Part shown: piece after piece, positions 16,785-57,468 of the stretch
Layout of the letters: every line of letters starts with the position of its first letter
Position numbering within the stretch: position 1 is the first letter of the stretch
DNA from: an uncultured Bacteroidia bacterium
GTDB lineage: Bacteria > Bacteroidota > Bacteroidia > Bacteroidales > Prolixibacteraceae
Reading direction: 5' to 3'
Assembly (NCBI GenBank): GCA_903902325.1
Contig: CAIUUO010000150.1
Location: forward strand, 1-64,000
Length of the DNA stretch: 64,000 nt
Notes under the pieces: generated by a model
Databases searched by the model: none
Told to the model about the DNA's origin: nothing
The model's input: the letters and a program-made list of their open reading frames with translations, nothing else
Translations under genes and position numbers: made by a program

Positions 16785-16817
16785 AGACCTGACAGGTTTC
16801 CAAAACCTGTCAGGTCT
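16785..16817 (+). repeat. REP palindrome, copy 1 (contains the RAYT stop codon)
   Basis: A 33-base palindrome built from GACCTGACAGGTTT and its inverse around a CCAA centre. The TGA stop codon of the transposase gene (16812-16810 on the minus strand) lies inside it. Confidence 0.9.
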
Positions 16818-17436
16818 GGTGCAACCATTCTTCGATTTTGTCGATTTGAATTTTCTGATTGTGCTGGTATTTGAAGTTGGCCATGTTAACAAACCAACCA
16901 ATGACTGATTCCCTGTGCAGTTTGGTCGGTTTTGTGGTTATACAGGTTAGGTAGCTGCACCATGGATAATCCAAAATATGTTCACAAAAACCATGATGTA
17001 TAGGGTTATTGTGTATGTATAGGATTACCTGCTTTAAATGATCTGTATCGCAGATCGGTTTTCTTTGAAAAGGTCTTTCAAAAAGTGCACCGTGGCGAAG
17101 AAATCGTTTGTTAACTGCTTTGGTATAGGCATTGAAAAGATTTGAAAAGTGCTGGTGAGGTGGTTTGAGTTTTACCAGACCTGACAGGTTTTGGAAACCT
17201 GTCAGGTCTGAAGATGTGGATAAAATTTCATTTTCCTCTTTTATCCTAACCAGCAGATGAAAGTGATTCGGCATTAAAACCCATGCAAAGGTATCAGCAA
17301 CAGGCGTTATATAATGATCATACAATTCAAGGAAATATTCAAAGTTCTCTCTTCCTCCGAATAATTTGCAACCATTGATGCCTCGATTATTAATATGGTA
17401 ATAGCAGCCAAATTTTAGCTTTTCTGTCTTTTGCAT
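16810..17436 (-). CDS. REP-associated tyrosine transposase (RAYT, Y1/IS200-like)
   Basis: 208 residues from ATG 17436 (MQKTEKLKF); an earlier in-frame ATG at 17505 lies within a REP palindrome and is rejected. The Y1 transposase fold is clear: YYHINNRGINGCKLF, the HUH metal-binding motif in MPNHFHLLVRI, and the helix with the likely catalytic Tyr in VILYIHNNPIHHGFCEHILD followed by YPWCSYLTC. RAYTs nick and rejoin REP hairpins and are thought to spread them. Here the gene is flanked by REP copies 1 and 3 and carries copy 2 inside, translated in frame as SDLTGFQNLSGLV. The stop codon is within copy 1. The ORF appears intact. Confidence 0.9.
   Translation of the reverse strand: MQKTEKLKFGCYYHINNRGINGCKLFGGRENFEYFLELYDHYITPVADTFAWVLMPNHFHLLVRIKEENEILSTSSDLTGFQNLSGLVKLKPPHQHFSNLFNAYTKAVNKRFLRHGALFERPFQRKPICDTDHLKQVILYIHNNPIHHGFCEHILDYPWCSYLTCITTKPTKLHRESVIGWFVNMANFKYQHNQKIQIDKIEEWLHQT
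17177..17209 (-). repeat. REP palindrome, copy 2 (inside the RAYT gene)
   Basis: Same 33-base palindrome as copies 1 and 3, with the asymmetric centre in the opposite orientation (GGTTTTGGAAACC on the plus strand). Its 33 bases equal 11 codons and leave the transposase frame open. Confidence 0.92.
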
Positions 17437-17487
17437 GATCAACTGATTTTTATCTATATAAGTTACGGCAAATTCTGCAAATTCAGA

Positions 17488-17519
17488 AACCTGACAGGTT
17501 TCCAAAACCTGTCAGGTCT
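17488..17519 (+). repeat. REP palindrome, copy 3 (upstream of RAYT)
   Basis: Same palindrome and same orientation as copy 1 (GGTTTCCAAAACC centre), 52 bases upstream of the transposase ATG and between it and the divergent amidohydrolase gene. Confidence 0.92.
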
Positions 17520-23049: not shown

Positions 23050-23506
23050 GCGTTAGGTGAAAGAGGGGGAGACCCGGTGAGTGGGAGAGGGGGTGAATTC
23101 AACTCCGGATCTGTGCTCCTGGTGAAGTGGGATTGAAGAACAACGTGCAATGCACTGTTCTGCTCAATTGCATGAGAAGATTTTAACCTGACCCAGCCAT
23201 TGTCTAAGTTTACACTTTGAGACCTTTGTGTTGTCCTTTGTGTCCATTGTGGTTAGAATTGACATTTTTACCACAATGGACACTTCTTTATTCCTTTACA
23301 AACCTTAACGTACTCTGAGATTTTGTGAATGGAAACCTGCCTAAATCGAAAGGGAACAAAAATCATCCATCAATTAAACCAAATACGGGGTCGAGGATCG
23401 AATATCAGCAATCATTCATGAATAGAATCAGTGAATTTTCAGCAAAATTCAAAGTTTCTACAAGGTTGCCTGCTTTCTTTGTGACTTTAAATTATTCTTT
23501 CCATCT
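23050..23506. other. Long intergenic region before the TonB-type receptor
   Basis: About 457 bases. The first part carries GA-rich sequence after the stop; 23212-23285 holds the CACAAAGG-type repeat pair described separately. The remainder up to 23506 is AT-rich with no gene that I can support, and no clear promoter was found. Confidence 0.4.
23212..23285. repeat. CACAAAGG-type inverted repeat pair (copy 3)
   Basis: The left arm (23212-23257) reads ACTTTGAGACCTTTGTG and CCTTTGTGTCCATTGTGGTT; the right arm (23269-23285) reads TACCACAATGGACAC. It lies behind the Gfo/Idh/MocA gene. Confidence 0.7.
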
Positions 23507-28392: not shown

Positions 28393-28476
28393 TTAACCAC
28401 AAAGGGCACAAAGTTAACCACGAAGGACACAAAGAGATCAGATTTCCTGATTACTTTGTGTCCTTCGTGGTTAAAC
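28393..28476. repeat. CACAAAGG-type inverted repeat pair (copy 4)
   Basis: Left arm 28393-28436 (TTAACCACAAAGGGCACAAA, then AACCACGAAGGACACAAAG); right arm 28451-28476 (ACTTTGTGTCCTTCGTGGTT). The ACCACGAAGGACACAAAG arms are perfect complements of each other across a short loop. It lies between convergent genes and probably ends transcription from both. Confidence 0.8.
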
Positions 28477-57407: not shown

Positions 57408-57468
57408 TACCACAATAGACACCTAGGTCACATAGAATTCTATTGTGACCTATGTGTCTATTGTGGTT
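57408..57468 (+). terminator. Long inverted repeat behind the dehydrogenase operon
   Basis: ACCACAATAGACACCTAGGT and ACCTATGTGTCTATTGTGGT pair almost perfectly (one mismatch in 20) across a short AT-rich loop. The sequence belongs to the CACAAAGG-type family (ACCACAATGGACAC in copy 3). It probably acts as the operon terminator. Confidence 0.65.

Follow-up and report, generated by a model that had tools for sequence, protein, structure and literature searches.

An in-frame palindrome inside a Bacteroidales RAYT gene changes in step with the palindromes on its flanks

A standing question about REP-associated tyrosine transposases (RAYTs) is how they recognize their palindromes and spread them. 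Known relatives of these enzymes act on single-stranded hairpins. In the window analyzed here, a 64,000-nt stretch from an uncultured Prolixibacteraceae bacterium, the palindromes presumed to be targets of one such enzyme lie both outside and inside its gene: one upstream, one in frame within the coding region, and one over the stop codon (Table 1). The internal copy might be a passenger that landed in a tolerated place, a hairpin selected in the mRNA, a template kept by coding selection, or the product of continued copying between positions at the DNA level. The locus is compared here with its relatives.

A RAYT gene with three palindromes

The encoded protein combines an HUH motif and a Y---NP motif on a Y1 transposase fold and is a RAYT. 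Pfam Y1_Tnp matches it weakly, and a phmmer search of the single window protein against solved structures returned no match; its AlphaFold2 model (pLDDT 92), in contrast to the single sequence, has as its best Foldseek match 4er8, a structure of the E. coli RAYT in complex with a REP hairpin, to which an alignment profile also leads. The NHFH and YIHNNP motifs are invariant or nearly so across 40 homologues. In the alignment to 4er8, the protein has F/E where the E. coli enzyme has its guide residues W94/Q95 (IWQ to LFE), and the region of R104 is not conserved.

Table 1. Features of the RAYT locus in window coordinates
Feature	Position	Strand	Support
RAYT (TnpA_REP) gene, 208 codons, ATG at 17436; HUH motif NHFH, catalytic Tyr motif YIHNNP	16810..17436	-	NCBIfam NF047646 (REP_Tyr_transpos) 5.6e-16, below the curated cut-off; Foldseek 4er8 E 1.9e-8; alignment-profile match to 4er8 2.9e-6
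Upstream REP palindrome	17487..17519	-	predicted RNA fold -21.8 kcal/mol, z -5.4
Internal in-frame REP palindrome, encoding SDLTGFQNLSGL	17176..17210	-	predicted RNA fold -28.1 kcal/mol, z -7.9
Variable-loop coding sequence (residues 71-90) holding the internal REP, between the HUH-motif strand and helix 93-111	17167..17226	-	AlphaFold2 model; loop position conserved in homologues
3' REP palindrome over the stop codon	16785..16817	-	predicted RNA fold -24.5 kcal/mol
TGA stop codon, part of the 3' palindrome	16810..16812	-	overlap with 16785..16817

The three palindromes, described as near-identical in an earlier sequence-only reading of this DNA, are indeed of one 33-nt type and 88-97% identical in register, the internal one having 16-bp perfect arms. 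The spacing of 52 bases to the ATG given there for the upstream palindrome holds for its 29-nt core and becomes 50 nt for the 33-nt unit. The internal copy is read as TCA GAC CTG ACA GGT TTC CAA AAC CTG TCA GGT CTG GTA, giving SDLTGFQNLSGLV, and its 33-nt core contributes a net 11 codons with the frame kept, just as had been proposed. Two further features of that description are real in the window and are not conserved among homologues. The central bases of the internal palindrome are inverted relative to the other two (TTTCCAAAA against TTTTGGAAA), but the closest relative (locus L053) carries its internal copy in the other orientation than the window's, and inverse orientation was rejected as a conserved feature. 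The stop codon of the gene is a TGA lying within CCTGACAGG; a palindrome-borne stop occurs in only 5 of the 33 loci having a 3' palindrome and is thus incidental rather than conserved.

Chance origin of the three palindromes is excluded, because the whole 4.79-Mb draft genome (304 contigs) holds about nine full copies of this type and three of them fall within these 735 bases. An assembly artefact is an unlikely source of the layout, since the layout or an internal palindrome is also present in isolates, namely Prolixibacter bellariivorans (L062), P. denitrificans (L067), and Labilibaculum (L086). The REP-encoded loop is the sole low-pLDDT stretch of the model and precedes the catalytic Tyr, and homologues without an internal palindrome exist. 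The added residues thus most likely do no harm in what is modeled as a surface loop, in line with the earlier suggestion that the transposase tolerates the internal copy.

Palindromes in one loop across two RAYT clades

A protein search returned relatives from Prolixibacteraceae and other Bacteroidales; the peptide patterns used for retrieval lie outside the REP-encoded stretch, so that the REP itself did not steer which loci were found. The set comprises 85 homologous loci with a readable RAYT, several of them cut by contig ends or from fragmented draft genomes. Seventy belong to the clade of the window gene and 15 to that of a second, divergent RAYT of the same genome (C44), which is 38% identical to the window RAYT over the aligned part. 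The C44 gene (L134 496-1220, equivalent to G000:C44:6695-7419) has the same three-palindrome layout built from an unrelated palindrome, AGTGACCGGGTGACT. A third RAYT of the genome (L133 526-1224, G000:C127) has a loop with the inverted repeat ACGCTGACAGGTCT/AGACCTGTCAGCGT around a 50-nt spacer and no tight palindrome. The window RAYT is accordingly not the only one of its genome, a point the sequence-only reading had raised.

The upstream, internal, and downstream layout recurs in homologues from Prolixibacteraceae and other Bacteroidales, with a palindrome type that varies among loci and agrees within each locus: CCTGACAGG in the window, CCTTCCAGG in L061, CCCTGACAGGG in L064, L072, L075, and L094, CCCTCAAGG in L087, and a long-loop form in L086. 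Relatives of the C44 RAYT add many further types. One of these relatives, L138, has palindromes at three places in or at the end of the coding region (nt 195, 399, and 620). The L059 and L077 genes have an ambiguous start codon, and their proteins may begin with an extension (TNLTGFQNLSG) encoded by the upstream palindrome.

With loop borders set by simple sequence rules, the loop holds a palindrome in 40 of the 70 loci of the window clade and in 9 of the 15 of the C44 clade, counts that are lower bounds because the detector misses long-loop and composite elements. Several homologues scored as lacking an internal palindrome in fact carry longer composite elements matching their own flanks (L090, L091, L096, L102, L104, L107, and L111), and palindrome-less homologues are therefore weaker evidence of empty sites than they appear. 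The loop holds 4.27 palindromes per kb, against 0.21-0.26 in the rest of the coding sequence (about 17-fold lower), 1.98 and 1.55 within the 300-bp flanks, and 0.24 and 0.18 outside them.

The internal and flanking palindromes change in step across unrelated sequences in both clades. Similarity of the internal palindrome to its own flanks is 0.83 in the window clade, against 0.62 to the flanks of other loci (permutation p<=5e-5), and 0.85 against 0.27 in the C44 clade (p=1.5e-4). In a separate blastn comparison, 54% and 60% of loops match their own flanks, as opposed to 0-4% of N- and C-terminal coding segments. When relatedness is taken into account by a nearest-neighbor test, there are 20 wins against 8 losses, with 6 ties (p=0.036), a modest result because close relatives usually share a palindrome type; the losses are mostly loci whose neighbor has the identical type. 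Presence of a flank palindrome is not clearly tied to presence of a loop palindrome (p=0.09 in the first clade, no association in the second). On a tree built without the loop, a quick one with many open forks, presence of the loop palindrome requires 20 changes, with at least 10 forced by well-supported branches.

Translation of the CCTGACAGG core uses either of two codon phases (19 against 6). Together with the orientation change in L053, this argues against selection on the peptide, which is probably close to neutral in function. The earlier reading would, by its own account, have been refuted by homologues in distant species with the same stretch but no palindromic DNA; homologues do share the loop, but its palindrome follows the flanks in sequence and has two reading phases.

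Copy number bears on whether the loop is merely one tolerated landing site among REPs inserting at random throughout the genome. Apart from the three copies at this locus, the window-type palindrome does occur elsewhere in the genome, at the low total given above, where its absence would have counted against the earlier reading; among the few other copies that were read, one is intergenic (L133 2889-2927). The AGTGACCGGGTGACT palindrome has five copies, three of them in the C44 locus, and 100 related genomes hold 0-18 palindrome copies each. Cognate REPs usually exceed 100 copies per genome, although not universally (PMC2817692), and neither the window nor the C44 palindrome approaches this number. 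A passive accident of this kind could draw on the low model confidence of the putative surface loop, on the homologues without a loop palindrome, and on the known REPs in unrelated genes (PMC3733652). Yet with about nine and five copies in 4.79 Mb, more than half of the 85 RAYT genes have a copy in this one loop, at a density above that of the neighboring DNA, and the internal palindromes co-vary with the flanks. So few copies and so strict a site speak against random insertion, a reading that is already disfavored and that we regard as very improbable.

Several observations stand beside these counts. Two relatives, G004 and G085, have 18 window-type copies each and no RAYT match at E<=1e-8; the RAYT may have been lost or missed. 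The window holds other long palindromes at 23240-23283, 57409-57467, and 28414-28474, the first two of which share a core (GTGTC.ATTGTGGT) and may represent a different dispersed repeat family. A text search of the literature for the palindrome sequence returned unrelated papers only.

Copying between loop and flank

Two Labilibaculum loci, L086 and L096, can be compared at close range. Their gene bodies are 84-86% identical and their downstream DNA 90-92% identical; the loop and the 3' element differ together, such that the loop of each genome matches its own 3' element. In L096, a 131-nt (131-column) match joins the internal loop plus coding sequence to the DNA 3' of the stop codon of the same gene, at about 2184-2307, and extends some 40 nt beyond the loop into ordinary coding sequence encoding GIKKPNP-KHFSHL. 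This copy ran from gene to flank, because the 3' element carries true coding sequence.

This case could point to a role of the internal copy as master template or functional DNA site of the element, with one REP, held in the RAYT frame by coding selection, renewing the flanking REPs. The strict position of the internal copy would fit as well. However, there is one clear directional case only, and many homologues do without the internal copy, which has been repeatedly gained or lost, so that we hold this account to be a long shot. In a related form, the maintained in-frame REP would be a template or reference for the flanking REPs, with palindrome and enzyme specificity evolving as one unit inside one gene; this we consider unlikely, if not negligible. 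The internal copy may instead be a brake on the enzyme or have no role of its own.

The sequence-only reading had also suggested regulation by hairpins in the transposase mRNA, whereby the upstream, internal, and stop-codon stem-loops would limit translation or protect or terminate the transcript, and selection would keep the internal hairpin. The predicted stems are very stable (Table 1), the upstream and downstream copies are predicted to pair in the full transcript, and hairpin control of IS transposase mRNA is described in PMC8450116. Nevertheless, mismatches between the arms of the loop palindromes on the sense strand comprise 7 G-T and 7 A-C, without wobble or strand bias; this equality, in small numbers, lends mRNA-hairpin selection no support. 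Moreover, a search of Rfam matched no family, the internal copy is missing from many homologues, and action at the RNA level alone would leave the sequence identity of the three positions unexplained. Regulation by mRNA hairpins thus appears decidedly unlikely.

As random insertion, selection on the peptide, and selection on an mRNA hairpin are all disfavored, insertion and renewal of the loop palindrome at the DNA level, in step with the flanks, is left as the better account. We favor, at a probability of about two in three, insertion targeted by the RAYT to a permissive loop, with ongoing copying among the positions. The locus would then be REPtron-like, with a single-strand HUH endonuclease whose presumed cognate palindromes lie on both sides of its gene and, in frame, within it. 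The internal palindrome sits in the modeled surface loop that separates the HUH motif from the catalytic tyrosine, a place where added residues may be harmless, and would arise and be repeatedly replaced as the RAYT acts on neighboring REPs while DNA is synthesized, or by hairpin copying. Such renewal could keep internal and flanking palindromes alike while they change together over evolution. The RAYT is the obvious candidate for this work, although that it does the copying itself we infer; copying by ordinary recombination is the alternative route. Against RAYT-targeted copying stand the rarity of the GT[AG]G head, found near either foot of only 6 of 114 palindromes, a protein without the guide residues W94/Q95 that E. 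coli TnpA_REP has, and the modest nearest-neighbor co-variation; in view of the first two, the palindrome is a presumed target.

Comparison with known systems

An in-frame REP inside a RAYT, which the sequence-only reading did not know of, has already been published: Quentin et al. 2018 (PMC6006769) report it for TnpA_REP subclass 2.4, equivalent to RAYT group 4, call in-gene REPs unique to this subclass, and remark that they "may have little impact". The window RAYT resembles subclass 2.4, as described there, in its NH[IFV]H and YIxNNP motifs, its occurrence in Bacteroidetes, its flanking REPs, and the placement of the in-frame REP, which follows HuH and precedes Y in a variable region that separates beta3 from alphaC. 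It differs in that subclass 2.4 REPs have a 5' GT[AG]G foot, single or double, which is rare here; in that W94, Q95, and R104 (E. coli numbering) are well conserved in the subclass; and in its very low palindrome copy number. Judged by traits rather than by tree placement, the window RAYT shares the striking feature and departs from two stated traits, and we do not class it as a plain member of the subclass.

Gammaproteobacterial REPtrons, such as those of E. coli TnpA_REP and the Stenotrophomonas RAYTs (PMC2817692, PMC8266576), likewise have a palindrome-flanked HUH/Tyr RAYT, and RAYT and REP co-evolve there as they do here. In contrast, no in-gene REP is known from them, the GT[AG]G head is essential in E. 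coli, and their REPs are present in large numbers. The palindromic elements of Rickettsia, like other intragenic REPs (PMC3733652), also lie in frame within protein genes and are tolerated in loops; these elements, however, are scattered over unrelated genes at various sites, whereas here the palindrome occupies one loop of the associated transposase gene and matches its own flanks. The IS200/IS605 TnpA proteins (IS608, ISDra2) share the HUH fold, as a fold match, and hairpin recognition, but belong to insertion sequences whose ends carry subterminal hairpins and have a Y---Q tyrosine motif in place of the RAYT-type YIHNNP.

Relative to the layout described in 2018, what is added is the position of the palindrome in the modeled loop, its co-variation with the flanks, the second RAYT of the same genome, the low copy number, the two phases, and the L096 copy; neither the co-variation nor the two reading phases appears in the main-text passages on subclass 2.4 of PMC6006769. 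The internal REP is thereby more than a random passenger, which goes beyond the published remark on its impact. With two clades, many palindrome types, and no GT[AG]G head, these loci form a large natural set of enzymes matched with their presumed targets, and pairs such as L086 and L096, in which loop and 3' element differ together at the same locus, may make the rules of recognition readable and testable.
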